Source: Syntrophorhabdales bacterium
GTDB lineage: Bacteria; Desulfobacterota; Syntrophorhabdia; Syntrophorhabdales; WCHB1-27
Direction: 5' to 3'
NCBI GenBank assembly: GCA_035541455.1
Contig: DATKNH010000129.1
Span: 1 to 45,160 of the forward strand
Length of the DNA stretch: 45,160 bases
The translations under genes and the position numbers were made by a program. The notes under the pieces are model-generated. The model was not told the origin of the DNA. It worked only from the letters and a program-made list of their open reading frames with translations, and did no database searches. The number at the start of each line of letters is the position of its first letter. Position 1 is the first letter of the stretch. Positions 1-41,543 of this stretch are shown piece after piece.

Positions 1-468
1 TTACCACCACGGGAAAATCCCTCTCGGCAACTGGCTCTTAAGCCACACCTCGAAAACGAGATAGGTGACGGCAACACTGAGAAAAGAAGCTAATAGCGCA
101 CCTGTAAGGCGCTTGTTATTCGGATTGAAAAAGAGGCCGAAGAGCACGACAAACGTTGTGAGGATATATCCGAGAAGATCCAGAAAAAGAGCATAGAAGA
201 CGAGAAGAGCCAGAGTGTAGGAAAGTTTGAATGGCGCGCTCTCCAGAAATCGCGGACGAACTCTTTCTGATCCTGCCCCGGTCTTCTCTGACGCAGGCCT
301 TTTGAATACGGTTACCAGTGCGCCGATCGCCATGACGAAAAGCCCGGCCGCAAAGGCCACGAATCCGACTCCCGGTTCCTTAAACGTACCGAGGCCGGTT
401 CGATAGGACCAGACGCTGACGGTCACTCCAATCAAGAGCCATATCGGCCCCTCAAGTATTCGTAACAC
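1..468 (-). CDS. tctB: Tripartite tricarboxylate transporter small membrane subunit TctB
   Basis: The 155-residue product has four hydrophobic segments (about residues 5-25, 33-53, 82-105 and 120-145), the size and layout of TctB, the small membrane subunit of tripartite tricarboxylate transporters. TctB works in the inner membrane with the large permease TctA and a periplasmic TctC binding protein to import carboxylates. The start is a GTG at 466-468 with a GGGAGA-type ribosome site just upstream. The stop codon is the first three bases of the window, so the gene is complete. It is the last visible gene of a minus-strand run with two tctC genes directly upstream; a tctA gene would be expected beyond the window edge, but that cannot be seen. 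Sequence conservation in this family is low, so the call rests on topology and neighbours. Confidence 0.8.
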   Translation of the reverse strand: MLRILEGPIWLLIGVTVSVWSYRTGLGTFKEPGVGFVAFAAGLFVMAIGALVTVFKRPASEKTGAGSERVRPRFLESAPFKLSYTLALLVFYALFLDLLGYILTTFVVLFGLFFNPNNKRLTGALLASFLSVAVTYLVFEVWLKSQLPRGIFPWW

Positions 469-564
469 GACTCTCCCGCCTGGAGATCAGTGATCAGCCA
501 GCAGTAAGCAGTCGACAAAAGACGGGATTCTTTGGCTGCTCAAAGCTCTCTGCTCACGCCTTTG

Positions 565-1551
565 TTATTTCACTAACCCTTCTTCTTTAAAAAAGACCTG
601 CAGGGCATCTTTGTACTGGTTGATCGATTTTTCGAAAGCTTTCGTTTCTTCAAAACTTACCTGGGTACCCATGCCGTTGATCTTTGCACGGAATTGCGGG
701 TCCTGGGCTATCTTGCGGATCGCATCATTCAGCTTCTGGATAACAGCATCCGGCGTGCCTTTTGGGGCGAAGACCCCCAAATAGGAGCCGAGCGCAAATT
801 TGTAGCCCAACTCAACTATAGTTGGTATATTCGGCGCAAAATCAGCCCTTTTCTCGAGGAGAAGGGTAAGCACCTTTATCTGCTTTGCATCGATCAGGGA
901 TATCACAGCAGGGTAGGCAGGCGTGCCGGCTGGCACGTGACCTCCAAGAATGGCGGGTACGATCTTCGTGTCGCCGTCGAAGGGCACATCGATCAGGTTT
1001 ATGTTTTCTGCCTTTGCGATGCTTTTCATTGCGAGGTATCCCTGTGTGCTTTTGCCGTGAATGCCGATCTTGGCGCCCGGGTTTTTTCGCGCATACTCGA
1101 CAAGATCCTTCACGCTGTTAATGGGTGAGTCTCCCTTTACCGAGATGGTAAGCACTGGTATACCCACCTTGGAAACGGGCTTCAGGTCTTTGCTCGAATA
1201 TGGTGCCTCGTAGAAATAGGTGTAGACTTCTGGAATGCTCGCAGAGGAGGGGAAAAAGCCGATCGTGTACCCGTCCGGCTTTGCCGCGGCTACTGCGTTG
1301 CCGCCCATGGTTGTTGATCCGCCGGGCTTGTTGACGGCTACGACAGGTTTCTTCAATTGCTTTTCCATGGCCTCTGCCAGTGCGCGGGCGCCGAGATCGG
1401 TCACACCGCCGGGCGGATAGGGGATGACCATGTTTATGGCTCGGTCAGGATATTCTGCAGCCGCAGTCTGAACCCCTGTAGCCTGCATCAGCATGAGTGT
1501 CGCGACCAGAAGGACGACCCCCGAAATGTGTATCGACTGACGCTTTCTCAT
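565..1551 (-). CDS. tctC: TctC-family (Bug) periplasmic substrate-binding protein, copy 1
   Basis: The 328-residue protein starts with a signal peptide (hydrophobic stretch about residues 10-30, AxA-like cleavage before EYPDRAI) and continues with the Bug/TctC fold: the YPDRAI strand, the PYPPGG loop near residue 45, a DLGARA helix and the GGxxTxGG motif. It would bind a carboxylate or similar small ligand in the periplasm and deliver it to the TctAB permease. The ATG at 1549-1551 has a GGGAGGG ribosome site. It lies between tctB and a second, very similar tctC, and shares the terminal motif FFKEEGLVK with copies 2 and 3. The three are probably tandem duplicates. The ligand cannot be told from sequence. 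Confidence 0.92.
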   Translation of the reverse strand: MRKRQSIHISGVVLLVATLMLMQATGVQTAAAEYPDRAINMVIPYPPGGVTDLGARALAEAMEKQLKKPVVAVNKPGGSTTMGGNAVAAAKPDGYTIGFFPSSASIPEVYTYFYEAPYSSKDLKPVSKVGIPVLTISVKGDSPINSVKDLVEYARKNPGAKIGIHGKSTQGYLAMKSIAKAENINLIDVPFDGDTKIVPAILGGHVPAGTPAYPAVISLIDAKQIKVLTLLLEKRADFAPNIPTIVELGYKFALGSYLGVFAPKGTPDAVIQKLNDAIRKIAQDPQFRAKINGMGTQVSFEETKAFEKSINQYKDALQVFFKEEGLVK

Positions 1552-1609
1552 GTCAATCCCTCCCGTTTTTGTTTTGTCTCACATAATTGGCCAGCGTTGG
1601 CGTGACTCC

Positions 1610-2596
1610 TCACTTAACCAGACCCTCCTCCTTAAAGAAGGCCTGCAGGTTCTCCTTGTAGAGATTGACTGTCCTCTCGAAAGCCTTGGTGTCCTCGAAC
1701 AACACCTGTGTGCCCATTTTGTTCATCTTGTCACGGTAATCCTTTTCCTGGGATACCTTTGCCATCGCATCGCTTATCTTGTTGACCGCAGCATCCGGTG
1801 TACCCTTTGGAGCAAAGATGCCGAAAAAAGAGCCGGACGGCAGCTTGTAGCCCAGCTCAACCAGAGTCGGAATGTTCGGAGCAAATTCAGCCCTCTTTTC
1901 GATCAGCAGCGTAAGGACTTTTACCTGCTTTGCCTCCAGGAGTGCTGCGATGCCCGGATACGCAGGCGTGCCCGCCGGTACATGACCTCCGAGAATGGCT
2001 GGTACGATCTTCGTGTCGCCGTCAAACGGAACGTCCACAAAGGTCACGTTGTCCTGCTTCGCGATGGTTTTCATGGCCAGGTATCCGGTTGTGCTCTTGC
2101 CATGAATAGCCATCTTGGCCCCGGGATTCTTGCGTGCATACTCGACAAGGTCCTTGATACTGTTTATCGGAGAATCGCCCTTGACGGTGATTGTAAGAAC
2201 CGGCGCACCAATTCTGGCTACAGGCCTAAGGTCTTTGCTTGAGTAGGGAGCTTCATAGAAGTATGTGTAGATTTCCGGGAAGGCTGCCGAACTGGCAAAA
2301 GCGCCCAGCGTATAGCCGTCCGGTTTTGCGGTGGCTACAACATTGCCGCCTATGGTTGTCGACCCGCCAGGCCTGTTGACGACAAGGACTGATTTTTTAA
2401 GATATTTTTCCATGGCTTCTGCCAGTGCGCGGGCGCCAAGGTCTGTCACGCCGCCAGGAGCGTATGGTGCTATGAGCGTAATCGCCCGATCGGGATACTC
2501 CGCGGCCCAAGCCGTGATCCCGGCGACCGGGCTCGTGAGGAAAAACAGGAATAAGACGATCACGCCAATTCTACGCACGGACGTATATACCATCAT
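1610..2596 (-). CDS. tctC: TctC-family (Bug) periplasmic substrate-binding protein, copy 2
   Basis: This 328-residue Bug-family protein is a close paralog of the gene downstream: the stretch around residues 190-215 (DVPFDGDTKIVPAILGGHVP) and the C-terminal FFKEEGLVK are the same in both. It has a signal peptide with a hydrophobic core at about residues 11-31. The start at 2594-2596 follows an AAGGGGGA ribosome site; a second ATG comes right after it. It lies 105 bp after the selenoprotein gene grdA, so it is probably co-transcribed with the grd cassette. Identity between copies is highest in the region lining the ligand cleft, which suggests related ligands; this is inference. Confidence 0.92.
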   Translation of the reverse strand: MMVYTSVRRIGVIVLFLFFLTSPVAGITAWAAEYPDRAITLIAPYAPGGVTDLGARALAEAMEKYLKKSVLVVNRPGGSTTIGGNVVATAKPDGYTLGAFASSAAFPEIYTYFYEAPYSSKDLRPVARIGAPVLTITVKGDSPINSIKDLVEYARKNPGAKMAIHGKSTTGYLAMKTIAKQDNVTFVDVPFDGDTKIVPAILGGHVPAGTPAYPGIAALLEAKQVKVLTLLIEKRAEFAPNIPTLVELGYKLPSGSFFGIFAPKGTPDAAVNKISDAMAKVSQEKDYRDKMNKMGTQVLFEDTKAFERTVNLYKENLQAFFKEEGLVK

Positions 2597-2701
2597 TTAT
2601 CCCCCTTTGTTGCTTTTCCTCACCTCATGGCCGCCTATCAGCCCAGGCACGCGGGCAATGCGCACTTGACGCACGGGGTAGGGAAGCACGTCCCGGCGTC
2701 C

Positions 2702-3166
2702 CTACGCGGGCTGGGTGTTCTCGCGTATAGCCTTGAATTTTCGTGCAACTTCGTCAGTATCGACGATCATACTCACAATCCCGGCCGACTCCTCGTACAC
2801 ATCCTCAGGAATTACCGCTTTTACTTCAGGTTCCAAGATATGGTAAATCGGCAACCCCAGGGAGACTCCGGCCAGGGGCCCCGCATAGCTGGGATCTCCC
2901 ACGGTGAGGGTTTCGGCTGCGATTTCTGCACCCTCGATGTCACTCGCGCCGAGAAGCACGACCACATCGTCTTTGCCCTGCTGTTCGACGATCTTCTTGA
3001 TCTGAGCCTGACTTTCCAAGTCAAGCGTGCCTGCGGCGGTTCAGACAAAGCATTCCGTTGTCATGAAGGCGATTGTGCCGCCTGCGGCCTCCACACATTT
3101 TGCAATCGCAGGACCGGGTACGCCGTCCCGCTCGCCGACGATGATAACTCGCTTACCTCTAAGCAT
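2702..3166 (-). CDS. grdA: GrdA-type selenoprotein (glycine/sarcosine/betaine reductase protein A) with in-frame UGA = selenocysteine
   Basis: Read through one UGA (3041-3043), the frame gives 154 residues with the features of GrdA, the small selenoprotein that carries the Se-carboxymethyl intermediate of glycine, sarcosine or betaine reduction. The motif is ECFVUTAAGTLDLE with Cys39 and Sec42, the Cys-x-x-Sec pair known in the family, followed by AAETLTVGDPSYAGPLAGV near residues 77-95, also typical. The N-terminus GKRVIIVGERDGVPGPAIA matches family form. The ATG at 3164-3166 has a strong AAGGAGG site 5 bp upstream. If UGA is taken as stop, only a TTG-started fragment from 3019 is called and the redox centre is lost. 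It follows grdC by 118 bp and precedes tctC. The residue-by-residue fit on both sides of the UGA makes a frameshift or true stop unlikely. Confidence 0.93.
3007..3025 (-). promoter_or_regulatory. Candidate SECIS hairpin in grdA mRNA
   Basis: Fifteen nucleotides after the grdA UGA the mRNA can form a 7-bp stem CUUGACU / AGUCAGG around the 5-nt loop UGGAA. Bacterial SECIS elements are hairpins placed directly after the UGA within the coding frame, often with G residues in the apical loop, and bind SelB. Position and loop fit; the fold has not been computed. Confidence 0.6.
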
Positions 3167-3284
3167 GATGACCTCCTTTGTGATACCCTTGCACGCTATA
3201 CATTACACGTTGCGCATTGCAAGCTCAAGGCAAATATCCTTCTACGCTCCGTGCCCCATCCCTTGTCTCAAACCCTTCGTAGAA

Positions 3285-4736
3285 CTAGCGTCGCGCCGGG
3301 TTTGCCTGCAGAAGGAACGAGAGCCCGTCCGAAAGCTGTGACATCCTGCCTAGAAAGAGACTTCCCTTTGCCACGAACATGGCGTGTTTCATACGTCCCT
3401 GCCGCATTTCCTCGAGGGCATGTCCCAAGAACGGCACTGCTGCAGGGATATGCCCCTGTGTGGGGGAGAAGCCGGGCATACCCCGTTCTTTGACAAAGGC
3501 ATCGATCCCCGACTTGTCGATCTCCTTTCGGATCGCGGCAAGCGCGCCCATGATCTTGTAGTTGGTGAGAGGCGTGTTGCCGCTGCCCGCGGGCAGGGTG
3601 ACCTCCGGGTTATGCATCTCGGTGGCATACCGGTCGATCTCCATCATCTTCATGCCTACTTTCTCGAGAGGCTTTACAATGAGGGAGGTCATGATGTCCT
3701 GCTGGCTCGATGCAGCGCCTATGTTGTGCTTGCCCACAGCATCCAGCCGAATGACGGGATTCACGCCGTCATCCTTTGTGATGAGTATGGCAAGACCGCC
3801 GAGCACGTCTTCCAGTACGGGCATGTTATGCTTGAGGTGACCGTGGTACTTCATGCCGATCTTCGCCAGGCAGCCGCCGCCGATGACAACAACCCGGTCA
3901 AATACCCCTGCCTCGACCTGGCTTGCCGCGTCCACAAGGGCGTGGATCGGTGCAGCGCAGAACGCCTTCACGTCGTGCCCGCTCGCATTAACGCAGCGGC
4001 ACATCTCGCCGATGGCTTTCGAGAGGCTCCCGCCGCCCCGGTTGTACCGATCCCCGACCGCGTCCTCCGAACAACTCAGGATAAAGTCCACCTGCGAAGG
4101 CTCGATGCCGGCCCGCTTGAAGAGATGGAACATGGCAAGCGCTCCCGAAGCTTTGCCGAGCAGGTTTTCCATGAGCACATGGGCCTTGAGGGTATCGTCG
4201 GCGTCATGGTCCCGCCTGACGAGACCAACAATGGCTCCGCCGGAGTAAAGAGGCAGGGCCTCATCCTTCTCGATACGCTCTATGATCTTCTCATACGGCA
4301 CGCCGTCACCGATTTTCTTCGCGGTGTTCTCCGTGAGGAAGGACTGGCGGGACATCACCTGTTTGGTTTTTTCCGCAAACTCCGGTGTAAACCAGACCAG
4401 ATCAAAATCGTCGGCGCACTTGAGCCAGCCGTAGAACTCTTCTTCGGGCTGTATCTCGCCGAACGGACCTATCCTGCGGGCATCTTTGACCGGATGTTGG
4501 TACCAGGGCTGAGGAATGTCGTTAAGCCGGTCCGGGTGCAGGTTACCGATATACACCTGATTCGGAGGATAGGCAATAGCCTCCTCGAAGCTTCGCACAT
4601 GGGCGTAGATATCCTTTTCCAGCGCACCTCCCGTGCCGCCGTTTAATGCTATGTCGCGGATCGGCTTTGAGCCGTATCGAACGAAACTGGGAACGTGGAC
4701 AAGAATATAAGAACACTCTTTGACAACAACAGCCAT
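3285..4736 (-). CDS. grdC: GrdC-type subunit (glycine/sarcosine/betaine reductase component C, beta subunit)
   Basis: The 483-residue protein resembles GrdC, a ketoacyl-synthase-III-like subunit of protein C, which takes the Se-carboxymethyl group from GrdA and forms a Cys-bound acetyl thioester; with GrdD this is released as acetyl phosphate. Visible landmarks are AIAYPPNQVYIGN near residues 53-65, the FILSCSEDAVGDRYNRGGG segment near 219-237, FCAAPIHAL near 259-267 with the probable active Cys, and a Gly-rich VVIGGGCLAKIGMK segment. The length fits the family. The ATG at 4734-4736 follows a GGGAGG site. It lies between the selenocysteine thioredoxin and grdA. No grdD is visible in the window, so how the acyl group would be released is open. 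Confidence 0.88.
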   Translation of the reverse strand: MAVVVKECSYILVHVPSFVRYGSKPIRDIALNGGTGGALEKDIYAHVRSFEEAIAYPPNQVYIGNLHPDRLNDIPQPWYQHPVKDARRIGPFGEIQPEEEFYGWLKCADDFDLVWFTPEFAEKTKQVMSRQSFLTENTAKKIGDGVPYEKIIERIEKDEALPLYSGGAIVGLVRRDHDADDTLKAHVLMENLLGKASGALAMFHLFKRAGIEPSQVDFILSCSEDAVGDRYNRGGGSLSKAIGEMCRCVNASGHDVKAFCAAPIHALVDAASQVEAGVFDRVVVIGGGCLAKIGMKYHGHLKHNMPVLEDVLGGLAILITKDDGVNPVIRLDAVGKHNIGAASSQQDIMTSLIVKPLEKVGMKMMEIDRYATEMHNPEVTLPAGSGNTPLTNYKIMGALAAIRKEIDKSGIDAFVKERGMPGFSPTQGHIPAAVPFLGHALEEMRQGRMKHAMFVAKGSLFLGRMSQLSDGLSFLLQANPARR

Positions 4737-4768
4737 GATTGGATACCTCCCTGCCTTAGAAGACTGCG

Positions 4769-5083
4769 CTATAGCAGTTTCTTGATTGACTCCTCAATGG
4801 ATTCCACGGACACATTGCCTGAGAGCCGTTCCACCTCCTTGCCGTCTTTGAACAAGAGATAGGTCGGCAGGGACATCACCTTCAGTTGGAGGCAGAGGCG
4901 CCTGTTTTTCGGAGCTTCCACCTTCGTCATCTTAACCTTGCCCGTATACGTGGTGCCGAGTGCCTCCACCTGAGGCATAGCCTTAAGGCAGGATACTCAC
5001 TGCGGCCCCCAGAAATCTACAAGCACGGGGAGGTCTGACTTGATTACTTCCGGTTCAAAACTTTCGGTTGTCAGGTCCTGCAT
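4769..5083 (-). CDS. trxA: Selenocysteine-containing thioredoxin (U-x-x-C active site) of the grd type
   Basis: Reading through a UGA at 4997-4999 gives a 104-residue thioredoxin: a strand PVLVDFWGPQ, then U29-V-S-C32, then LKAMPQVEAL, a cis-Pro motif (SLPTYLLFKDG) and a C-terminal helix. The active site is Sec-x-x-Cys where thioredoxins have Cys-x-x-Cys; the surroundings resemble thioredoxins of clostridial grd operons, which from memory carry a CxxC there. Such thioredoxins re-reduce protein A after each cycle. The ATG at 5081-5083 has an AAGGAG site overlapping the stop of the upstream grdB-like relic, so it may be translationally coupled to it. An ATG-started remnant at 4978 is what remains if UGA is read as stop. 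Start and UGA are in frame by count. Confidence 0.9.
4961..4977 (-). promoter_or_regulatory. Candidate SECIS hairpin in selenothioredoxin mRNA
   Basis: Nineteen nucleotides after the UGA the mRNA forms a perfect 6-bp stem UGCCUC / GAGGCA around loop AGGUG. The adjacent G pair in the loop is a feature known from SelB-binding hairpins. The short palindrome GCCTTAAGGC between the UGA and this stem could compete or stack. Not computed. Confidence 0.55.
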
Positions 5084-5094
5084 GGCACATCTCC

Positions 5095-5247
5095 TTACTG
5101 AGAAGTATTGGTTTCGTTGGGTGTTGACGCCAGAGCCTTCAGAGCGGCAAGCACTACGTTCCCGCGTAGCGCCTTCTCATCCTCGCGTGAAAGGTTGGGG
5201 TCACCCAACGGATTGGTAATGCCTATACCTGAAACGATGCGGTTGGC
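5095..5247 (-). pseudogene. C-terminal relic of a grdB-like gene (glycine/sarcosine/betaine reductase protein B selenoprotein subunit)
   Basis: Directly after the tctC copy 3 stop, a different frame encodes about 50 residues up to a TAA at 5095-5097: ANRIVSGIGITNPLGDP, then LSREDEKALR, then a short helix LAALKAL. This pattern (NRIV..I.I.NP.G.P.LS...EKALR) matches, from memory, the C-terminal end of the GrdB/GrdF/GrdH substrate proteins. The remaining roughly 380 residues, including the Sec site of GrdB, are absent: the region upstream is an intact tctC. The stop overlaps the ribosome site of the thioredoxin gene, as expected for an old operon junction. It may be a true deletion or recombination relic, or an assembly junction. 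It has no own start codon with a ribosome site and is probably not translated usefully. Confidence 0.65.
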
Positions 5248-5251
5248 TTTC

Positions 5252-6232
5252 TTACTTAACCAGCCCTTCTTCCTTGAAGAAGACCTGCAGTTCCTTCTTT
5301 TCCCTCTCGGTCGAGACTTCGAAGGATTTTGTTTCTTCAAAGGAAGGCAGAATGCCCAATTCCATCAGCTTCGCGCGAAACGCGGAATCCTGTGAAACCT
5401 TTGCGGCCGCGTCATTTATCTTTTTCACGATGTCGTCCGGCGTGCCTTTTGGTGCGAATACCGAGTTTGCCATACCCGGGGGAATCTTGTAACCGAACTC
5501 AACGATGATAGGCACGTTCGCCGGCATGAAATCGGCTCGTTTCTCTACAAGGAGGACTACCAGTTTGAGTTGTTTCGCGTCCACAAGAGATTTGACTGAA
5601 GGGTAGGTAGGGGATCCGACGGGAATATGGCCGCCGAGAATGGCAGGCACAATCTTGACGTCGCCGTCGAAGGCGACATCGATGATGTTGAGGTTCTCAT
5701 TTTTCGCAATAGCTCTCGTAATAATGTAGCTGGGCGATGTCTTGGTGTTGATGCCCCACTTTGTCCCGGGATTCTTGCGCACATACTGGACGAGATCTTT
5801 AAGACCGTTAATGGGTGAATCACCTTTGACCACTATGGCGCCCACGGCCGTCGCAACCCGGCAGACAGGTCTTAAATCCTTGCTCGCGTAAGGCGCCTCA
5901 TAGAAATAGGTATATACCTCCGGGATGCTCGCCGCAGGTGGAAAGTAGCCCAGAGTGTATCCGTCGGGTTTGGCGGTGGCCACGACGTTTCCACCCATCG
6001 TCGTTGAACCGCCTGCCCTGTTGACCACCACTACAGACTTCTTGAGCTGTTTCTCCATTGCCTCCGCGAACGCACGCGCACCCAGGTCGGTCACGCCTCC
6101 CGGAGGATAGGGCACGACCAGAGTAATAGTCCGGTCGGGGTAATCCGCCAAAGCCCAGCGGACTTCGACCAGGCTTCCGGACAAAAAAACCAGCATCGCA
6201 ATGGTATAAACAATGACTGCCGTCTTTCGCAT
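5252..6232 (-). CDS. tctC: TctC-family (Bug) periplasmic substrate-binding protein, copy 3
   Basis: This is a 326-residue Bug-family binding protein with a signal peptide (hydrophobic core about residues 4-24, cleavage before DYPDRTI), the PYPPGG loop, DLGARAFAEAMEKQLKK helix and the GGSTTMGG motif. It ends in FFKEEGLVK like copies 1 and 2 but is more diverged in the cleft region (INTKTSPSYIITRAIAK instead of IHGKST...). The ATG at 6230-6232 is chosen because of the GGGGAGG site just upstream; an in-frame upstream extension to 6391 has no ribosome site. It begins the minus-strand block and abuts the grdB relic. A weak promoter-like TTGCGC and CATAAT pair 17 bp apart lies 30-70 bp upstream. 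Confidence 0.92.
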   Translation of the reverse strand: MRKTAVIVYTIAMLVFLSGSLVEVRWALADYPDRTITLVVPYPPGGVTDLGARAFAEAMEKQLKKSVVVVNRAGGSTTMGGNVVATAKPDGYTLGYFPPAASIPEVYTYFYEAPYASKDLRPVCRVATAVGAIVVKGDSPINGLKDLVQYVRKNPGTKWGINTKTSPSYIITRAIAKNENLNIIDVAFDGDVKIVPAILGGHIPVGSPTYPSVKSLVDAKQLKLVVLLVEKRADFMPANVPIIVEFGYKIPPGMANSVFAPKGTPDDIVKKINDAAAKVSQDSAFRAKLMELGILPSFEETKSFEVSTEREKKELQVFFKEEGLVK

Positions 6233-22394: not shown

Positions 22395-23045
22395 ATGGAT
22401 GAAGAACGAAAAGCATCGGCAGAAGAAGCAAAGCAGAAAAAAAGCTCCATGAGAGTCTCCCGTCGCGACTTCCTAAAAGGAATGGCGACGACTGCGGTAG
22501 CGGCGACCATTACCACGTTTCCGGGACAATCTCTTCCCGAAGCCGAAGCTGCATTGCCTTCGGGAGTCAAGGAAGCGCTCATCACCCTCAATGTCAACGA
22601 CAGAGCCTATCGCGTGAAAGTGAAGTCAAATTGGACCCTGCTCGATGTATTGCGACGGGAGCTCGATCTCACCGGAACCAAGAAGGCCTGCGACCACGGG
22701 AATTGCGGCGCCTGCACGGTAATCGTGGATGGAAAAGCAGTTTATGCATGCTCTCTCCTCGCGATCGGCATGGATGGCAAGAAGATCGCTACCGTCGAAG
22801 GCTTGAGGGAAGGAGAGAAGCTCCATCCCATCCAGAAGGCTTTCTCCGAGCAGGGAGGGTACCAGTGCGGTTTCTGTACCTCGGGGCAGATGATGGCCGC
22901 TAAGGCGCTGCTCGATAAAAACGCGAACCCCACAGCAGATGAGGTACGCATGGCCATGGCCGGCAATCTCTGCCGATGCGGCGCTTATCCGAAAATCATC
23001 GAATCGGTTTTGAGTGCGGCCAAAAAAATTTCGGCAGGCGCGTGA
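22395..23045 (+). CDS. Tat-exported [2Fe-2S] subunit of a xanthine-dehydrogenase-family molybdoenzyme (set 1)
   Basis: The 216-residue protein begins with a Tat signal (SRRDFLKG, residues 22-29, then a hydrophobic stretch to AEA) and has the two [2Fe-2S] domains of the family: Cys99, 104, 107 and 119, then Cys158, 161, 193 and 195 (QCGFC and CRC motifs). It carries electrons between molybdenum centre and FAD. A Tat signal on the small subunit only is known from PaoABC-type periplasmic aldehyde oxidoreductases, where it exports the whole complex. The ATG follows AGGAG. Its stop overlaps the start of the molybdenum subunit by 1 bp. Confidence 0.92.
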   Translation: MDEERKASAEEAKQKKSSMRVSRRDFLKGMATTAVAATITTFPGQSLPEAEAALPSGVKEALITLNVNDRAYRVKVKSNWTLLDVLRRELDLTGTKKACDHGNCGACTVIVDGKAVYACSLLAIGMDGKKIATVEGLREGEKLHPIQKAFSEQGGYQCGFCTSGQMMAAKALLDKNANPTADEVRMAMAGNLCRCGAYPKIIESVLSAAKKISAGA

Positions 23046-25279
23046 TGGCAGGCGAATTCAAAGTCGTCGGAAAACGAGTGGAGCGCGTGGATTCCTTTGA
23101 ACGGCTGACAGGGGAGGCGAAGTATGCATCTGATGTCTATCTGCCGGGAATGCTGTACGTAAAAGTCACGCGTAGCCCCCATCCCCACGCAAGGATTGTG
23201 AGGATCGATGCGGCGAAAGCCCAGGCGCTGGCCGGTGTCAAGGCGATTCTGACGCCGCAGGAAGTGCCGGACTTCGCAATTCATAGCAGGCCCAATCCTC
23301 CTTTCGTTCGGATGCCTGTCCTCGCGAGCACGCCCCGTTATGTGGGTGATGAGATCCTCGCCGTGGCAGCCGTGGATGAGGAGACCGCGGAGAATGCGCT
23401 GGAATTGATTAAGATTGACTTCGAGGTTCTTCCATTCGTGCTCGATGCCGAAGAGGCGGCAAAATCGGGAGCGCCACGCATCTATCCTGACGGGAATGTG
23501 ATACGCGAAAAGATTGACACCCTCGTGCGCGGCAATCTCGAGGAGGGATTTAAACAGGCGGACGTTATCTTCGAGGGGAAATATCAGACCCACATGATTC
23601 AGCACGTTACCTTGGAGCCGAGGGTGACTGTAGCAGCCTGGAACGGAAAGAAGCTGACTCTCTGGGACGGTGGCAAAGGGCCCTTCGGCCTTCGGAACGA
23701 TCTTGCAGAGGCTCTCAACATCAAGGTCAATCAGATCAGGGTTCTGACCCCGTTTATAGGAGGCGATTTCGGCGACAAGGGCAGGGTGGAGAGGCAGCAT
23801 GTCATCTGTGCACTTCTGGCGAAGAAGACAGGGCGGCCGGTCAAACTGGAGTTCACGCGGGAAGAGAACTTTCTCGCCACACACCATCGGTATCCGACGA
23901 CATGGTATATGAAGTACGGCGCGAAGAAAGACGGCACGTTGACTGCGATGCATGTGCGGCTCTACGCTGATCTTGGCGCCTATTACCACATGGACTTCGC
24001 CTATAATTCTCTCGAAGTTCCGAAGGGCGTTTACAGATGTCCCAATGTCATGCTGGAAGGCTACAATGTATTTACGAACAAACCTGAAGCCGGCCAGATG
24101 CGATGTGTCGGCCATCCGACCGGCATGTTCCCGCAGGAAGTCCACATGGACCGGCTCGCAGAAAAACTGGGCATGGACCCCTTTGAGTTTCGGCTTAAGA
24201 ATTACGCGCGAAAAGAGGATGGCGATCAGGACAGGAAGATTCCCTTTACAAGCTGCGGTATGGATGAGTGCGCCAGGCTGGCGTCCGAACAGTTCGGCTG
24301 GAAAACCAAATGGAAAACACCGGGCTCAGGCTCTGGTCCTGTGAGAAAGGGCGTCGGCGTTGCCTTTCAGTCATGCAGACACGGGTCGATCTTCGGGCCC
24401 ATGTCCGCTGTTATCAAAATGGATCAGGATGGCACCATAGAGCTGATGAACGGGCTCAACGATACAGGAGGCGGGCAGAAGACGGCCATGGGAATAATTG
24501 CCGCCGAAGAGTTGGGTGTGCCTTATGACGCAGTGCAGGTAACGACCGGCGACACTGACTCGACCACCGACACAGGAACCGCAGGGGGCAGTCGCGGAAC
24601 ACCATCTGTGGGCCTCGCCGTTGTGGCCGCTGCGCGGGATGTCAAAAATCAGTTGCTCGATGCGGCAGCCGATGTGCTGAAAAAGAAGAGAGACGATCTG
24701 GAGATTCGGGATGGCGCCCTCTTTATCAGGAGCGAGAACAGATCCGTTCCCTACAAGGAGATCGTTTCAAAAAGCGGCGCAACCATCGTCGGACGGGGTT
24801 CTCCCAAAGCACCGCAGGGCATTGCTACGCATACCTTCGGCGTTCACTTCGTCGAAGTGGAAGTGGACATGCGCACGGGTAAGGTGAAGGTACTGCGTCT
24901 CGTTGCGGCGCATGATGTGGGCCGTGCGATAAGCCGCATCGGGGTCGAGAACCAGATCCAGGGCGGGGCTGTTATGGGTATAGGTTACGGTATGCTCGAA
25001 AGACAGTATATGGACGCTCCTACGGGCATCTGCGTCAACTCCAATATGGTCGATTTCAAGGTTCCGTCTATCCTGGACGTGCCCTTTGTGGAGCCGATAA
25101 TCGTGGAGCCTGATGATCCTGTGGGACCGTTCGGCGCGAAGGGTTGCGGGGAACCGCCATACGGCGTGCCTGCGCCGGCCATTGCCAATGCGATCCACAA
25201 TGCCATCGGCGTGCGTTTCACCGAGATTCCGGTCAATATCCGATCGGTCCTCGATGGGATAGAGAAGCGCAAGGGATAA
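23045..25279 (+). CDS. Molybdopterin-binding subunit of a xanthine-dehydrogenase-family enzyme (set 1)
   Basis: The 744-residue protein has the usual features of the large subunit: VGKRVERVDSFERLTGEAKY at the start, IGGDFGDKG in the first half, GGQKTAMG and the catalytic Glu (Glu703) in GCGEPPYG near the end. It would hydroxylate or dehydrogenate an aldehyde, N-heterocycle or similar substrate at a molybdenum cofactor. The ATG at 23045 overlaps the TGA of the small subunit. It is strikingly close to set 3 in the window. Its own FAD-subunit gene is truncated, so this complex may use another FAD subunit or be a two-subunit enzyme. Substrate unknown. Confidence 0.9.
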   Translation: MAGEFKVVGKRVERVDSFERLTGEAKYASDVYLPGMLYVKVTRSPHPHARIVRIDAAKAQALAGVKAILTPQEVPDFAIHSRPNPPFVRMPVLASTPRYVGDEILAVAAVDEETAENALELIKIDFEVLPFVLDAEEAAKSGAPRIYPDGNVIREKIDTLVRGNLEEGFKQADVIFEGKYQTHMIQHVTLEPRVTVAAWNGKKLTLWDGGKGPFGLRNDLAEALNIKVNQIRVLTPFIGGDFGDKGRVERQHVICALLAKKTGRPVKLEFTREENFLATHHRYPTTWYMKYGAKKDGTLTAMHVRLYADLGAYYHMDFAYNSLEVPKGVYRCPNVMLEGYNVFTNKPEAGQMRCVGHPTGMFPQEVHMDRLAEKLGMDPFEFRLKNYARKEDGDQDRKIPFTSCGMDECARLASEQFGWKTKWKTPGSGSGPVRKGVGVAFQSCRHGSIFGPMSAVIKMDQDGTIELMNGLNDTGGGQKTAMGIIAAEELGVPYDAVQVTTGDTDSTTDTGTAGGSRGTPSVGLAVVAAARDVKNQLLDAAADVLKKKRDDLEIRDGALFIRSENRSVPYKEIVSKSGATIVGRGSPKAPQGIATHTFGVHFVEVEVDMRTGKVKVLRLVAAHDVGRAISRIGVENQIQGGAVMGIGYGMLERQYMDAPTGICVNSNMVDFKVPSILDVPFVEPIIVEPDDPVGPFGAKGCGEPPYGVPAPAIANAIHNAIGVRFTEIPVNIRSVLDGIEKRKG

Positions 25280-31020: not shown

Positions 31021-33369
31021 CTACCCGCTTTCTTTGTTCTTTATCTGTTCCAGTTTCTCGATAATTCTGTGAGGATAGAATGGCGTCTGGTTCAACCGGA
31101 CCCCTGTTGCGTTGTACAGGGCGTTTGCGCATGCCGCGATGGTGCCAGCCACGTAACCTTCTCCCACTTCCTTTGTGTCGTAGTGACTGCCCTTCTTGTA
31201 CTCTTCCGTGATCACATCAACGTAGTCGGTCTCGACCATGTCAAGGGAGCAGGGAATGCGGTACTCCAGGAAGGAAGGGTTGATCACCGCTCCCTTGTCT
31301 GACACCACTTCCTCGTAGAGTGCGTGACCTTGACCCATCGAGACCTGCCCATCGATCTGTCCTTCAACGAGCACAGGGTTGAACGGAAAGCCACAGTCAT
31401 GTGCGGTGGTCACCTTGAGTATTTTCATCGCGCCTGTCTCCGTGTCTATTTCGACCTCCGCTACCTGCGCATAGGATGAGTAGTTCTCCGACCATCTTCC
31501 CTTCGTTGTCGCCAGGCTGGGATGGGCCGGCTCATCCTTCATGGTTCTGAAGTGGCCCTCCCCGATGATCGAGTCTCCCCTCTTCTTTGCGATGCTTGCT
31601 GCAATCGCCTGCCGGTAAGAGATCTTCTTGTCGGGCGCCCGCCTTGCAAAAATTTCCTTATTCCTGGCCACCAGCTCGCCGGGATCGGTATCGAGCTCTT
31701 CCGCGGCAGCTTGCAGGAGTTTTCTCATCGCGCTCTCTGCTGCCTTTTTGGCTGCGTTTCCGGTAACCCACGTCAGGCCGCTGATCCACGAACCGATGTC
31801 GACGCAGGTTGTCTCTGTATCGGCAGCGTAGACCTGGATATCCTCCACAGGGACTGACATTTCTTCAGCCACGATCTGGCTCAGTACTGTTTCCGCTCCC
31901 TGTCCCATATCCACTGCTCCCGTGATCAACAACACGCTCCCGTCATCAGTCAACTTTACTATGACCGACGAGCTATTCGGATAGACCAGGGAGCCCCCGA
32001 AGTATGCACAGGTACCGATGCCAATGCCACGCTTTATCTTTGACCCGTTCGATCGTTCTTCAACTGCCTTCTTGTGTTTCTCCACGAAATTAGTCCGGCG
32101 GGCCACCTCTTCCAGGCAGCGCACCAGGCCGAAGTTCTTCACACTATCTTCGTTGGGAAGTATCTCTCCGGGTCGCCGTGCGTTCCTGAGCCTCATCTCT
32201 GCAGGGTCCAGGTTCAGTTGCTCGGCGATCATGTCGAATTGCGATTCGACGGCAAACCGCACAGCAGGAGCACCATGGCCCCTCTGCGGGCAACGGACAA
32301 GATTGTTCGTATAGACAGAGTACCCCTCGTACTTGAGGTTCGGTATTCTGTAGGGAGTCATCAGAAAGCCCCAGGCAAGGAAGATCACAACCACACCGCT
32401 ACCTCTGTACGCGCCACTATCATTGATCGTCCGCACCTGCTGTCCGAGGATCGTTCCATCTCTCGCCACCCCCGTCTTCAACTCCACAATCAGGGGCTGA
32501 CCGTGACGGGCGCCTTTGAAAACTTCTTCCCTGCTGTAAACGATTCTTACCGGGCTATGACATTTCATCGACAGGAGCGAGGCTATGTATTCGTGACTGA
32601 AGAGATCGATCTTGCCACCGAACGCTCCGCCCACATACGTTTTGTGGACACGGACATTCCCAAACGGAAGACCAAGAGTATTGGCCAGCTTGGCCCGCTT
32701 GAGGAACGTGCCCATGCTCGAAACCCAAACGTCGAGTTTTCCTGAATAGTCGTAGCTCGCAACGATTGCCTGCGGCTCCATGTAGGCGTGAGTGCGCAGA
32801 TGGGTGACAAACCGGTCTTCCCTGACGAGATAGGCCTCTTCAAACGCCTGGTCGACATCACCCCACCCTGTGCGTGTCAGCCCGCCTATGTTCTTGTAGG
32901 GCTCCTGCACCTTTGGATGAGACGGGTGAATCTCCGGCGCGTTGAGCTTCATCGCCTCTTCCGGCGTGAAGACTGCCGGCAACACTTCGTATTCAACCTT
33001 TATCAGGGAAAGCGCTTCCTCGGCTGTAGGCTCGTCAATGGCCGCTACTCCTGCGACCTCTTCGCCAACGTGGCAGACCTTGTCGACTGCTATCGGGTAC
33101 TGATCCGCGGGGTATCGAGGGGTTTCCACAAAACCGTGCCTGATCTTGAGCGAATCTTTAGCCGTAACGATGGCTTTTACGCCGCGGAGTCTTTCTGCGC
33201 GCGTCGTATCTATTGAAAGGATGCGCGCGTGTGGATGCGGACTTCTCAATACCTTTCCATACAGCATCCCGGGGAGCGACACATCGACCGTATATTCGGC
33301 GCGTCCCGTCACCTTTGTCGGCCCGTCCTTGCGCGTTATCGATTTCCCGACATAAGAAAGCTCTTCCAT
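31021..33369 (-). CDS. hcrA: Molybdopterin subunit of a 4-hydroxybenzoyl-CoA-reductase-like enzyme (set 2)
   Basis: The 782-residue protein is an XDH-family large subunit: the start YVGKSITRKDGPTKVTGRAEY, the GGAFGGK motif (residues 247-253), GAVDMGQGAETVLSQIVAEE and the catalytic Glu737 in KEVGEGYVAG. As alpha subunit of 4-hydroxybenzoyl-CoA reductase it would remove a phenolic hydroxyl from an aryl-CoA with low-potential electrons. The assignment to this branch rests mostly on the FAD subunit two genes upstream, which has the extra Fe-S loop. A TRAP transporter and an acyl-CoA ligase lie downstream. The substrate could be another hydroxylated aryl-CoA. It starts 1 bp after the hcrC stop. 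Confidence 0.8.
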   Translation of the reverse strand: MEELSYVGKSITRKDGPTKVTGRAEYTVDVSLPGMLYGKVLRSPHPHARILSIDTTRAERLRGVKAIVTAKDSLKIRHGFVETPRYPADQYPIAVDKVCHVGEEVAGVAAIDEPTAEEALSLIKVEYEVLPAVFTPEEAMKLNAPEIHPSHPKVQEPYKNIGGLTRTGWGDVDQAFEEAYLVREDRFVTHLRTHAYMEPQAIVASYDYSGKLDVWVSSMGTFLKRAKLANTLGLPFGNVRVHKTYVGGAFGGKIDLFSHEYIASLLSMKCHSPVRIVYSREEVFKGARHGQPLIVELKTGVARDGTILGQQVRTINDSGAYRGSGVVVIFLAWGFLMTPYRIPNLKYEGYSVYTNNLVRCPQRGHGAPAVRFAVESQFDMIAEQLNLDPAEMRLRNARRPGEILPNEDSVKNFGLVRCLEEVARRTNFVEKHKKAVEERSNGSKIKRGIGIGTCAYFGGSLVYPNSSSVIVKLTDDGSVLLITGAVDMGQGAETVLSQIVAEEMSVPVEDIQVYAADTETTCVDIGSWISGLTWVTGNAAKKAAESAMRKLLQAAAEELDTDPGELVARNKEIFARRAPDKKISYRQAIAASIAKKRGDSIIGEGHFRTMKDEPAHPSLATTKGRWSENYSSYAQVAEVEIDTETGAMKILKVTTAHDCGFPFNPVLVEGQIDGQVSMGQGHALYEEVVSDKGAVINPSFLEYRIPCSLDMVETDYVDVITEEYKKGSHYDTKEVGEGYVAGTIAACANALYNATGVRLNQTPFYPHRIIEKLEQIKNKESG

Positions 33370-33370
33370 G

Positions 33371-33859
33371 TTAATGACCCCCTGGTTTCTGCACGCTCAC
33401 CGAAGCAATCGCCTTCACGATCTTGTTGTATCCCGTGCAGCGGCACAAATTGCCGGAGAGCGCGATTTGAATCTCCTCTCCCGTCGGCTTCGGTTTTTCG
33501 TCGAGCAATGCCTTTGCGGTTAAGACCATGCCGGGAGTACAGTAACCGCATTGGACCGCGCCGTGATCGAGGAATGCCTGCTGAATGGGATGAAGTTTTT
33601 CCCCGCTCGATAATCCTTCAATCGTTGTTATCGCCTTGCCCTGGGCTTCAACCGCGAGGAGTAGGCAGGAACGAACCGGTTTCCCATCGATAAGGACTGT
33701 GCATGTACCGCAGACGCCGTCATCGCATGCCTCTTTGGCGCCCTTCAAGGAAAGGTCCTCCCGCAGCACTTCGAGGAGCGTCCTGTTCGGATAGGTGGCG
33801 ATCTCGTACTCGAGGCCATTTACGATCAGTGAGATGAGACGCTTCGATTTTTTTTCCAT
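33371..33859 (-). CDS. hcrC: [2Fe-2S] subunit of the 4-hydroxybenzoyl-CoA-reductase-like enzyme (set 2)
   Basis: The 162-residue protein has the eight cluster cysteines: Cys45, 50, 53 and 65 in the plant-type N-terminal domain and Cys104, 107, 139 and 141 in the helical domain (QCGYC, CRC). Unlike the small subunits of sets 1 and 3 it has no Tat signal, so this complex is cytoplasmic, which agrees with a CoA-ester substrate. The ATG follows AAAGGAG. It sits 10 bp after hcrB. Confidence 0.88.
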   Translation of the reverse strand: MEKKSKRLISLIVNGLEYEIATYPNRTLLEVLREDLSLKGAKEACDDGVCGTCTVLIDGKPVRSCLLLAVEAQGKAITTIEGLSSGEKLHPIQQAFLDHGAVQCGYCTPGMVLTAKALLDEKPKPTGEEIQIALSGNLCRCTGYNKIVKAIASVSVQKPGGH

Positions 33860-33869
33860 GAGTTCTCCT

Positions 33870-34853
33870 TTACAGGCGCTCGAGGGCCGCTTTCATCGAC
33901 CTCTTCGCAAAAACGGCAAGCATCTTCCTGCGATACCACGCAGGCATGAAGGCGTTGTTCACAATCGGGAGATTCCTGGGAATCAATTGATCGACGCTAT
34001 CGAGGTCAACCTCCGAGGACCTTCTACCGACGACAATCCCGTTGATAGGCACGACCACGGGCGCGGGCCCTGCTGCGGAGAGGACAATCCGGGCAGATTC
34101 GATAATCTTACCGGCAGCAGAAACGAAAGCAGCAGCGCCGACCAAAGGATAATCCATTGCAGAGCGAAGTCTCAGTTTTTGATAGGTGGAACTCACTTTC
34201 TTCCCCGGGATGGGTACGATTACTTCTGTTGCGATTTCCTCCGCTTCCCGTTGCACCGGATTACGCCCCTGTCCGGTGAACAGCTCCTGGACAGCCACCT
34301 CCTCCGGTTTGCCCCGTTTCTTCTCGATTCTGATCTTCGCATCATGCGCGATAAGCGCAGGTGCCAGGTCTCCTTGATAGACGCTGAAGCACTTTCTGCT
34401 TCCAGGCACTGCCAGACACGCCTTGCCTCCCGCCTTAAGGCACGCCTGACGTTCCAGACGCCATGTACCCGATTGATTGTAGAAGATGCAGCGGGAATCC
34501 TGAAAGAGATTTCCGCCGATCGTTGCTACGTTACGGATGGGTGGCGCGGCCACGGCGAGCGCTGCCTGGTGAACCGCAGGAAGATGCTTTTCGATGAAGC
34601 CTGACGTCGCGATTTCAGCCAGAGTAGTCATTGCTCCGATACGTACATGTTGCCCTTGTCTCTTGATACCCCTCAGCTGCGGCAGGTTCTTGAGTCCCAA
34701 GAGGTACGAGGGCGTGATGAGGCCGAGCTTCATCAACGGCATGATATCGGTTCCTCCCGCCAGGAGCCGTACCTTCTTTCCGTACCGCTGCATCATCGCG
34801 AACATTTCCTGCAGGGTATCAGGCTCCAGGAAATCGAAATAAGGTAATCGCAT
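33870..34853 (-). CDS. hcrB: FAD subunit of the 4-hydroxybenzoyl-CoA-reductase-like enzyme, with extra [4Fe-4S] loop (set 2)
   Basis: The 327-residue protein has the FAD-binding LAGGTDIMPLMKLG and TIGGNLFQDS motifs and then a loop with Cys122, 138, 146 and 155. From memory, four cysteines with this spacing bind the additional [4Fe-4S] cluster that marks HcrB of 4-hydroxybenzoyl-CoA reductase and lets it take electrons at low potential. The surrounding RCIFYNQSGTWR resembles that loop too. It is the first gene of the operon hcrB-hcrC-hcrA-dctQMP-ligase. The ribosome site before the ATG is weak (GGGGGCCC). Confidence 0.85.
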   Translation of the reverse strand: MRLPYFDFLEPDTLQEMFAMMQRYGKKVRLLAGGTDIMPLMKLGLITPSYLLGLKNLPQLRGIKRQGQHVRIGAMTTLAEIATSGFIEKHLPAVHQAALAVAAPPIRNVATIGGNLFQDSRCIFYNQSGTWRLERQACLKAGGKACLAVPGSRKCFSVYQGDLAPALIAHDAKIRIEKKRGKPEEVAVQELFTGQGRNPVQREAEEIATEVIVPIPGKKVSSTYQKLRLRSAMDYPLVGAAAFVSAAGKIIESARIVLSAAGPAPVVVPINGIVVGRRSSEVDLDSVDQLIPRNLPIVNNAFMPAWYRRKMLAVFAKRSMKAALERL

Positions 34854-35271: not shown

Positions 35272-36255
35272 TTATGGTTTGCGCAGGCCCATCTTTGACG
35301 CCAACTCAGCCATATCCCTGTAATCGTCGTCTCTCAGCTTTCTCTGTTCGGCAGGCGTTTTGTATTCACAGGTGATCCCCATTGCCTCGATCTTCGGCTT
35401 TGTCGCCTTTACTGCTTTTTCGACAGCAGGAATGAGAACCTTTTTTGCTTCGTCCGGAATTCCCGCAGGCGCATACATGCCGAACCAGGTTGCCGGCAGG
35501 GGCTGCTTGTAGCCCAGTTCCTTCATGGTCGGTATTTCAGGCGAAGAAGCTCTCTTCGGGTCCATCACCAGGATCCTTAATCTTCCTGCTTCCGCGTGCG
35601 GTTTCAGCTTAGTATACGTATCGACCGCTGCTTCCACGTGTCCTCCCAGAACAGCAGTAACCACCGATTCCCCTCCCTCGAAAGGCACGTGCGTGAACTG
35701 GGCTCCGGTAAGAGACTGAATAAGCTCGATCACGAAGTGCGGCTGAGAGCCGACGCCGATGGACGTTACGCGTAGTTTGCCGGGATTCTTTTTTGCGTAA
35801 TCGATGAACTGCGTGAATGTTTTCCAGGGAGCGTCTGCTTTAACCCCGACAACGGTAGGCAAGAAGCAATAGAAACCGAGCGGCTCCAGGTCTTTCCCAG
35901 GATCAAACCGGACGACCTCCGGGTTTGCCAGAGGTGCATACACGAGGGCACCGGCGCTGGCATAGATCAGAGTGTAGCCGTCCTTCTTCGCCCTGACGCC
36001 TGCCTCGACTCCCAGAACCGTTCCTGCGCCTGGTTTGTTATTCGCGATAATTTTCTGGCCCAGGATCTGCCCCATTTCTTCTGCGAGGAGCCTTCCCGTG
36101 ATGTCCATTCCGGCCCCTGCAACATTGGGGATGATGAGCTGAATAGTGTGATCCGGATACCCTGCTGCAAAAGAGTGCAGAGACGCCAGCGCCACAATAG
36201 CTGCTACGAGTGAAAGAGCCAGCAACGTCTTGCAGAAGAAATGTTTTATCTTCAT
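35272..36255 (-). CDS. tctC: TctC-family (Bug) periplasmic substrate-binding protein, copy 4
   Basis: The 327-residue Bug-family protein has a signal peptide (hydrophobic core about residues 9-30, cleavage before GYPDHTI), the IIPNVAGAGMDITGR region in place of PYPPGGVTDLGAR, and the KPGAGTVLG motif. It is clearly more diverged than copies 1-3 and lacks their FFKEEGLVK end, so it belongs to a different branch and probably binds a different acid. No tctA or tctB is beside it; orphan TctC genes are common. It lies 30 bp after the M24-fold gene and ends next to the hairpin array. Confidence 0.9.
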   Translation of the reverse strand: MKIKHFFCKTLLALSLVAAIVALASLHSFAAGYPDHTIQLIIPNVAGAGMDITGRLLAEEMGQILGQKIIANNKPGAGTVLGVEAGVRAKKDGYTLIYASAGALVYAPLANPEVVRFDPGKDLEPLGFYCFLPTVVGVKADAPWKTFTQFIDYAKKNPGKLRVTSIGVGSQPHFVIELIQSLTGAQFTHVPFEGGESVVTAVLGGHVEAAVDTYTKLKPHAEAGRLRILVMDPKRASSPEIPTMKELGYKQPLPATWFGMYAPAGIPDEAKKVLIPAVEKAVKATKPKIEAMGITCEYKTPAEQRKLRDDDYRDMAELASKMGLRKP

Positions 36256-37419: not shown

Positions 37420-37671
37420 AGCCTGATCTCCCCGGCCGCTATTTTTGCTATCTAATATCCTATACATCCTCCGGTTAAGCAAGCGCAGCGAAAAAACCCG
37501 GCGCGACAAGTCTCTGTGGCGTCGCTTGTAAATTGTTCTTGACAAAGGTCTTGCGCGCATTGCACCATTCATGGATGGCAGAAAGAGTAACGTGCGCTTT
37601 CGGGGTGAGTTTCAATCAAGAAAGATAATAGACAAGCATGAGATAACCCAAGCACAGTGAAGGGGGAAAAA

Positions 37672-38310
37672 ATGGGCAAGAAGGAACACGAGCCTGTCAG
37701 TGAAGAGGAGAAAGAATCGGGCAAACTGAAGGTCACACGTCGTGACTTCCTGAAAGGCCTGGGAGCGAGTACCGTGGCTGCCGCCGTGATCACAACAGGA
37801 GGCGCTCACAGCGAGGCGGAAGCAGCGGCTCCTCCAAAGGGGACCCGTGATGCCCTGATCACCACGGAGATCAATGGTCGGAGCTATCGTGTTGCTGTCA
37901 AGACGCACTGGACCCTGCTGGATGTTCTGAGAAGGGAGCTTGGTTTAACAGGGACGAAGAATTCCTGCAACCGTGGTAGTTGCGGGGCGTGCACTGTCAT
38001 CATGGACGGCATGGCTGTGTATGCCTGCGCGCTCCTTGCGGTTGAAGCTGACAAACGAAAGATTACCACGATAGAGGGATTATCTGACGGCGAAAAGCTC
38101 CATCCCATTCAGAGCGTATTCATACAGGAGGATGCGCTTCAGTGCGGCTTCTGTACTCCTGGTATGATCATTTCCACCAAGGCGCTGCTCGACAAGAACC
38201 CGCGGCCAAGTGAGGCAGAAGTGAAAGAAGCACTTTCAGGGACGATTTGCAGATGCGCCGCTTATCCCAAGATAGTGAAGGCCGTAATGTCGGTTTCACA
38301 GAAGGCATGA
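37672..38310 (+). CDS. Tat-exported [2Fe-2S] subunit of a xanthine-dehydrogenase-family molybdoenzyme (set 3)
   Basis: The 212-residue protein has a Tat signal (TRRDFLKGLG, residues 22-31) and cluster cysteines at 99, 104, 107, 119, 158, 161, 193 and 195, the same positions as in set 1, although the two signal peptides and linkers differ in sequence. The ATG at 37672 follows AAGGGGG; a GTG at 37657 would place that site inside the gene. It precedes the large subunit by 9 bp. Confidence 0.92.
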   Translation: MGKKEHEPVSEEEKESGKLKVTRRDFLKGLGASTVAAAVITTGGAHSEAEAAAPPKGTRDALITTEINGRSYRVAVKTHWTLLDVLRRELGLTGTKNSCNRGSCGACTVIMDGMAVYACALLAVEADKRKITTIEGLSDGEKLHPIQSVFIQEDALQCGFCTPGMIISTKALLDKNPRPSEAEVKEALSGTICRCAAYPKIVKAVMSVSQKA

Positions 38311-38319
38311 GGGGGGCAC

Positions 38320-40539: not shown

Positions 40540-40553
40540 AGGAGGAGAGAACG

Positions 40554-41543
40554 ATGAAACCATTCGACTATTATAAGGCCACCACGGTCCAACAGGCTGT
40601 GGATCTCCTTGCAAAATATCAGGACAAGGCCGCTATTCTGGCGGGGGGAAGCGATCTCCTTGGCCTAATGAAAGACCGTATAGAAGGCCCGAAGATGAAG
40701 CTGCCTCAGCACGTGGTCGACATCAAAGGGATCAAAGACCTGGCCATTATCAGAGAGCAGAAGACGAGCTTGAGGATTGGTGCTGCTGTTACGATCACCA
40801 GTATCATTTCGTCCGAGGTAGTCGCGGCAAAGTACCCGCTTCTCGTGCAGGCAGCAAAACAGGTGGCCGTGCCGCAAATCAGGAATGTTGGAACTCTGGG
40901 AGGTAACCTCTGCCAGCGTCCCCGCTGCTGGTACTTCCGCGGGAAGCTTTTCACAGAATGCCTGCGCAAGGGGGGCGGAAACTGCTATGCCCACGACGGA
41001 GAGAACCAGTACCACGCTATCATTGGAGGCGATATCTGCGCCATGGTTTACCCCTCGGATATGGCCCCTGCATTGATCGCGCTGGATGCGAAAGCCGAAA
41101 TAGCCGGTCCGAAGGGCTCACGTACTGTTCCGTTGGAAAAATTCTACGTGTCCCCGGAAAAAGTGATAGTCCGAGAGAATGTGCTTGCTCCTCAAGAGAT
41201 GCTGGTCGCTGTTGAAATCCCTGCATCGTCGCAGGGAAGAAAAGGAGTTTTTCTTAAGCTAAAGGAAAGGCAGGCCTTTGATTTTGCAATCGTCAGCGTT
41301 GCCGTGTCGCTCGCGTCGAAAGGCACGATACTATCTGATGCCCGCATAGCCTTCGGAGGCGTTGCACCATTCCCGCTCAGAAGTGCAAAAGCTGAAGCCG
41401 CCCTGAAAGGCAAGGAATTGAAAGGCGCCGTTTCCGCCGCGTGCGCCGTCTGTGTGGACGGTGCACAGCCTATGAGCAAGAATGGCTACAAGGTTGACGC
41501 GGCTAAAGGGGTCCTGGAGCAAGCGCTCACATCTCTGGCGTGA
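40554..41543 (+). CDS. FAD subunit of the set 3 molybdoenzyme, with extra Fe-S cysteines
   Basis: The 329-residue protein has the FAD loop ILAGGSDLLGLMKD near residues 28-41, TLGGNLCQRPRCWYFRG near 114-130 and five cysteines (120, 125, 136, 144, 162) where some members of this family bind an extra [4Fe-4S] cluster. The PSDMAPALIALDAKAEI segment follows, as in the family. It passes electrons from the [2Fe-2S] subunit to an acceptor. It begins 14 bp after the large subunit. It is the complete version of the gene that is truncated in set 1. Confidence 0.93.
   Translation: MKPFDYYKATTVQQAVDLLAKYQDKAAILAGGSDLLGLMKDRIEGPKMKLPQHVVDIKGIKDLAIIREQKTSLRIGAAVTITSIISSEVVAAKYPLLVQAAKQVAVPQIRNVGTLGGNLCQRPRCWYFRGKLFTECLRKGGGNCYAHDGENQYHAIIGGDICAMVYPSDMAPALIALDAKAEIAGPKGSRTVPLEKFYVSPEKVIVRENVLAPQEMLVAVEIPASSQGRKGVFLKLKERQAFDFAIVSVAVSLASKGTILSDARIAFGGVAPFPLRSAKAEAALKGKELKGAVSAACAVCVDGAQPMSKNGYKVDAAKGVLEQALTSLA

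Follow-up and report, generated by a model that had tools for sequence, protein, structure and literature searches.

The window analysed here (the whole stretch of 45,160 nucleotides) is contig C129 of a draft genome assembly (3.9 Mb, 97% complete, 173 contigs; G000 below). Positions 1 to 6,232 carry the following features, all on the minus strand and listed in the direction of reading:

5252..6232, minus strand: tctC3, binding protein of a tripartite tricarboxylate transporter (Tct), 326 amino acids (open reading frame; PF03401, 136.7 bits)
5095..5250, minus strand: grdB relic, the last 51 codons of a GrdB (NF040794, 6e-10; TIGR01918, 8e-9)
4769..5083, minus strand: Sec-thioredoxin, 104 amino acids, active site WGPQUVSC (PF00085, 76.8 bits; cut-off 23.5 bits)
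3285..4736, minus strand: grdC, beta subunit of protein C, 483 amino acids, FabH-like (NF040746, 658 bits; cut-off 450 bits)
2702..3166, minus strand: grdA, selenoprotein A, 154 amino acids, Sec42 in CFVUTAAG (NF040748, 210 bits; cut-off 130 bits)
1610..2596, minus strand: tctC2, Tct binding protein, 328 amino acids (PF03401, 161.7 bits)
565..1551, minus strand: tctC1, Tct binding protein, 328 amino acids (PF03401, 169 bits)
1..468, minus strand: tctB, small membrane subunit (PF07331, 54.8 bits; cut-off 29 bits)

Open reading frames and family scores agree with the gene order given in the original prediction, and its statement that grdE, an intact grdB and grdD are absent from the locus is confirmed locally. 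These three binding proteins score 137-169 bits (PF03401 cut-off 27 bits), and tctC3 is 61-64% identical to tctC1 and tctC2 in pairwise comparison. The contig terminates right past tctB, so that tctA falls outside the view; a relative from the same family (G002, Syntrophaceae MAG bog_1155) has TctA at the position corresponding to the contig end. The grdB fragment starts directly past the tctC3 stop, lacks a plausible start codon, and aligns to the final ~45 positions of the GrdB/GrdF models (6e-10 to 8e-9). In-frame TGA codons occur at residue 42 of GrdA (CFVU) and residue 29 of the thioredoxin (WGPQUVSC), and the G002 orthologues have UGA at both of the same places. Among the inspected loci lacking grdD, selenocysteine in the thioredoxin is confined to the window and G002 (WGPQUVPC), the other relatives having Cys there. 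A tRNA-Sec is encoded on contig C84 of the host genome (RF01852, 71 bits). A SECIS search for hairpins after the UGA codons gave a stem of 9 pairs for grdA (z -1.9) and a z of -0.7 for the thioredoxin gene. An Rfam search of the window returned no matches, a promoter scan found 2 promoter-like sites versus 3.5 in shuffled sequence, and on the minus strand none of the gaps separating the operon genes contained a terminator-like site. Elsewhere in the window, three molybdenum hydroxylase gene sets of the xanthine dehydrogenase type were read by eye (22395-25279, 31021-34853 and 37657-41543). Genes for TRAP transporters and CoA ligases lie nearby, and in two of the three sets the iron-sulphur subunit bears a Tat-like signal.

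Three related tctC genes lying close together on a contig that ends at tctB raise the question of whether faulty assembly created the join between tctC3 and the grdB tail, or the arrangement in its entirety. However, the tctC copies share no more than 23 identical bases, none of them at the junction, and apart from distant tctC paralogues neither side of the junction is found anywhere else in the genome. A mis-join at a tctC repeat was rejected, long exact repeats being absent. Chimerism at the junction is thus unlikely, and an artefactual origin of the arrangement as a whole is given very little weight.

The grdA and grdC genes each occur once in the genome, both in the window, and the sole grdE and sole complete Sec-containing grdB lie together on another contig (G000:C152:1625-4226; 334 bits with PF09338 and 486 bits with PF07355). 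The original prediction had allowed either for a cassette whose partner grd subunits are encoded at another locus or for a reductase in which another protein supplies the substrate. The C152 pair, whose orthologous pair is linked to Tct genes in G002, supports the former, and the presence of a normal protein B in the genome counts against the latter. Of the subunits sought in the same genome, grdE and an intact grdB were recovered and GrdD was not. Nor does the genome hold a complete second grd operon that would make the window copy a plain relic, grdA and grdC being found only in the window. We infer that the C152 protein B is the partner of the window cassette. Solved structures searched by sequence gave no match for GrdB. 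A tRNA-Leu(CAA) gene (L003:1417-1504) ends 120 bases before grdE on C152, and the pair may represent an insertion at a tRNA gene. Contig C137 encodes a further selenoprotein (L005:321-1280, Sec171) that is PrdB/GrdB-like and of the PrdB-like kind, scoring 96 of 300 bits with the D-proline reductase PrdB model, below the cut-off.

The arrangement becomes clearer beside G002, where one strand of contig G002:C315 carries a LIV-type binding protein gene, tctC, tctB, tctA, grdE2 and grdB2, and the divergent strand carries a MerR-GrdB fusion gene, trxB, grdE1, grdB1, Sec-thioredoxin, grdC, grdA and LIV-type ABC genes. This locus resembles the window in having the same core with a Sec-thioredoxin, the same type of protein B and the same type of Tct; it differs in having all genes on one contig and in keeping E1/B1, together with an ABC (LIV-type) transporter. 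The C152 GrdE and GrdB are each 63% identical to E2 and B2 of G002, compared with 37% and 50% to E1 and B1, and the C152 GrdB and B2 are sisters in the GrdB tree (support 100/99). The tctC1 product of the window is 63% identical to the TctC of the grdE2-grdB2 operon. The grdB fragment, by comparison, best matches the tail of GrdB1 in G002 (29/51 identical, versus 21/45 to the host's own C152 GrdB) and sits directly before the Sec-thioredoxin gene, the place of B1 in G002; judged by these alignments, it is the tail of a lost second protein B of the E1/B1 type. An origin of the fragment from the tail of a MerR-GrdB fusion was rejected, as the tail of the catalytic GrdB1 of G002 fits better (142 versus 127 and 110); such a fusion gene lies directly upstream of the thioredoxin gene in G016.

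The G002 synteny indicates that the Tct transporter and the split-off protein B belong together, a pairing that draws mainly on this one relative, and that A, C and thioredoxin form a shared core. The simplest history suggested by these two genomes starts from an ancestor in which a LIV-linked protein B and a Tct-linked one shared a single A/C/thioredoxin core. The window lineage would then have lost E1 and most of B1, the grdB fragment marking the deletion of the second protein B, with Tct genes coming to flank the core and E2/B2 moving near the tRNA-Leu gene.

Conservation between the same two genomes bears on whether the cassette is a relic decaying after the loss of grdE and grdB. Nonsynonymous divergence from G002 (dN) is 0.09 for grdA, 0.16 for grdC, 0.32 for the thioredoxin gene, and 0.27 and 0.26 for the C152 grdE and grdB, and dS for the same genes is above 1.6 or saturated, which indicates that all of them are under purifying constraint. 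Although a real grdB fragment without a start codon adjoins tctC3 and grdE1 is gone, decay is highly improbable for a cassette in which grdA, grdC and the thioredoxin gene are intact, constrained and unique in the genome, both Sec codons are kept, and an intact grdE-grdB pair is encoded in the same genome.

Fusions of a DNA-binding domain of MerR type to the C-terminal, Sec-bearing half of GrdB also lie beside the grd operons at L022:13560-14898 and L023:10300-11686 (both minus strand; Pfam MerR_1, 28.8 and 28.9 bits against a cut-off of 21.6; GRDB, 149 and 150 bits). These are apparently selenoprotein transcription regulators derived from the enzyme, a kind of regulator for which no description was found in the open literature.

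Linkage between Tct and grd genes is rare (2 of the 80 loci compared), and in the window genome the Tct genes are unlinked to grdE-grdB; the G002 locus nevertheless provides a precedent, so that the original statement that known grd loci are not built into a Tct transporter does not hold. Further Tct binding proteins are encoded in the host genome on contig C85 and in the window at 35272-36255. The C85 genes form another Tct cluster (L134:4287-16128) with several TctC, AcnX and IlvD/Edd-type genes, and its TctA is 83% identical to that of the grd-linked operon of G002. At a GrdD-bearing locus of Desulfovibrio piger (L093:16575-19585), TctA and TctC homologues lie ~3 kb from grdA. Open reading frames read by eye place the core next to a TAXI-type binding protein and a fused TRAP permease in G016 and L041, LIV genes in L040, and ammonium transporter genes in L044. 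These differing transporters around the cores of relatives suggest that Tct is an exchangeable importer and not part of the enzyme. We infer that the substrate class carried by the importer is a small carboxylate, and the Tct link offers a handle on the substrate through what TctC binds. Three TctC genes around a cassette with no local protein B could also be taken to mean a new reductase in which TctC, instead of protein B, passes the substrate to GrdA. This is extremely improbable, as TctC is exported (signal peptides by reading) and GrdA is cytoplasmic, and as an intact protein B is encoded whose orthologue is Tct-linked in G002.

Features of the C152 protein B bear on the identity of the substrate. 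Its GrdE, like E2 of G002, is missing both cysteines of the GNCVSAC site of pyruvoyl formation, a feature also reported for FarE and the betaine protein GrdI (PMC10838667). The C152 GrdB has TUGTST instead of TUGTCT, and reads NHGGYDS and STAGVAC, unlike the AHGGxD and TxGNxT that make up the glycine motif of GrdB (PMC9751293). Scores fall below the curated cut-offs for glycine (TIGR01917, 532.8 of 602.2 bits), sarcosine and betaine (GrdF, 560 of 800 bits; GrdH, 455 of 775 bits) and, for GrdE, FarE (213.6 of 675 bits). A protein B lacking the glycine motifs probably acts on a substrate other than glycine, and one without an amine that forms a Schiff base, or another small carboxylate, appears likely.

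When 84 GrdC proteins are placed in a tree, the GrdD-linked sequences form one clade (37 rows, support 100/99), and the remaining 47, which come from at least six phyla and include that of the window, all lack an adjacent GrdD. The GrdD clade contains two rows without GrdD, L090 and L110, and in each of them the contig (5.0 and 3.6 kb, respectively) breaks off shortly past grdC. Searched as whole genomes with the curated GrdD model, none of 11 genomes of this phylum and none of 32 further genomes of the GrdD-less class (0 of 43) exceeded the cut-off, and all nine GrdD-bearing controls did. In the host genome, NF040747 gives no match and PF02504 matches only PlsX, of which there is one. The clean split of the tree and the genome searches indicate that GrdD has long been missing throughout the branch and that its absence is not a defect of the window locus; the earlier generalization that known grd loci carry grdD therefore gives way to precedent across a whole GrdC branch. 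The cassette is thus placed, by its GrdC, in a wide and little-noticed branch of glycine-reductase-like enzymes without the subunit making acetyl phosphate, and no description of a GrdD-less Grd system was found in the open literature. Loci with grdC-grdA and no GrdD include L053-L062, L068, L070 and L074 (Nitrospinota and others) and L079, L083, L088, L095, L099, L101, L103 and L105 (Actinomycetota), marine Nitrospinota and soil Pseudonocardiales among them. To our knowledge, these lineages are not known as amino-acid fermenters. A locus from Acidobacteria that branches at the base of this GrdD-bearing clade (L064:7733-8347) has a divergent GrdD (35%), present as two pieces at contig edges and possibly an intermediate. 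At L046:11513-11629 (the same as L027:7997-8113), the match to grdA covers 39 codons and breaks off just short of the Sec site, a possible frameshift or broken gene.

Glycine reductase is the textbook case of soluble ATP formation via acetyl phosphate and acetate kinase, and FabH-type enzymes act on CoA thioesters. The AlphaFold model of the window GrdC (pLDDT 90) has a FabH/OleA-type fold (best PDB match E 6e-11), the match to solved structures by sequence being a weak one of FabH type only, and its Cys260 is invariant in 36 sequences from both the GrdD-bearing and GrdD-less classes. Neither acetate kinase (Ack) nor phosphotransacetylase (Pta), the two enzymes searched for in this role, was found in the host genome, which would make acetyl phosphate a dead end there. 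Of the eight well-assembled GrdD-less genomes, G016, G020 and G079 likewise lack both enzymes, which brings the number without either to four; G077, G107 and G141 each have only one of the two, and G131 has both. GrdD is described as belonging to the protein C that forms acetyl phosphate (PMC9908766). The joint lack of GrdD, Ack and Pta is most economically read as direct transfer of the acetyl group to CoA, which makes acetyl-CoA, rather than acetyl phosphate, the most likely form in which this group is released. The same machine could still yield acetyl phosphate if GrdC alone, the housekeeping PlsX or another phosphotransacylase, such as PduL, replaced GrdD. GrdD resembles the PlsX family, the single PlsX of the genome would be at hand, and acetate kinase occurs in three of the eight well-assembled genomes, but the host and the three others lacking Ack and Pta have, as judged by these two enzymes, no known outlet for acetyl phosphate; this alternative is unlikely, though with an appreciable chance of being right.

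Taken together, these observations favor, with a probability of roughly 0.7, the cassette as a working part of a selenium-dependent reductase of a GrdD-less branch, with the substrate-binding half encoded elsewhere in the genome, the neighboring transporter as importer, a shared A/C/thioredoxin core, and acetyl-CoA as the most likely product. The core in the window, co-oriented with the periplasmic binding proteins of the importer, would comprise selenoprotein A, the GrdC of protein C and a dedicated Sec-thioredoxin. A small carboxylate would be taken up by TctC/TctB (with TctA past the contig end) and bound by protein B (GrdE and Sec-GrdB, C152), which would hand a carboxymethyl group to Sec42 of GrdA. 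The Sec-thioredoxin would regenerate GrdA, and GrdC would accept the acetyl group on Cys260, from which it would be released as acetyl-CoA.

It is conceivable, at somewhat less than even odds, that a phylogenetically separate GrdD-less branch, with members in Thermodesulfobacteriota, Nitrospinota, Chloroflexota, Actinomycetota, Bipolaricaulota and other groups, conserves the acetyl group as acetyl-CoA directly on GrdC. Its members would combine a constant A/C core with transporters and protein Bs that vary, many of these serving non-glycine substrates. If true, this would mean that acetyl-CoA is also a direct product of the same selenium chemistry, in genomes often without Ack and Pta, and that annotation underestimates how widely carboxylates are reduced with selenium in soils, sediments and the ocean.

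Compared with the clostridial glycine, sarcosine and betaine reductases (GrdA, GrdB, GrdE, GrdC, GrdD, Trx, TrxB), the host has a CxxU GrdA, Sec-GrdB, GrdE, GrdC and thioredoxin, but lacks GrdD, Ack and Pta, has a GrdC in a separate branch, and has an unlinked protein B that falls short of the curated cut-offs for glycine, sarcosine and betaine. Another parallel is the fluoroacetate reductase farACEB of Cloacibacillus porcorum, in which a shared A/C core encoded elsewhere is supplied by a protein B that does not act on glycine and has a transporter of its own, and the GrdE-like subunit lacks the two processing cysteines (PMC10838667). Unlike farACEB, the host falls under the FarE cut-off (214 of 675 bits), has another transporter type, and has no radical SAM gene seen directly beside the C152 grdE-grdB pair. 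That several protein Bs can feed one core is established knowledge from Synergistota, fluoroacetate reductase being the example, and Synergistota are drawn with grdD, unlike the host (PMC10838667). A selenocysteine thioredoxin (UxxC) has already been listed (PMC13188914) with the same active site as that in the window, the latter differing in its dedication to the grd core.
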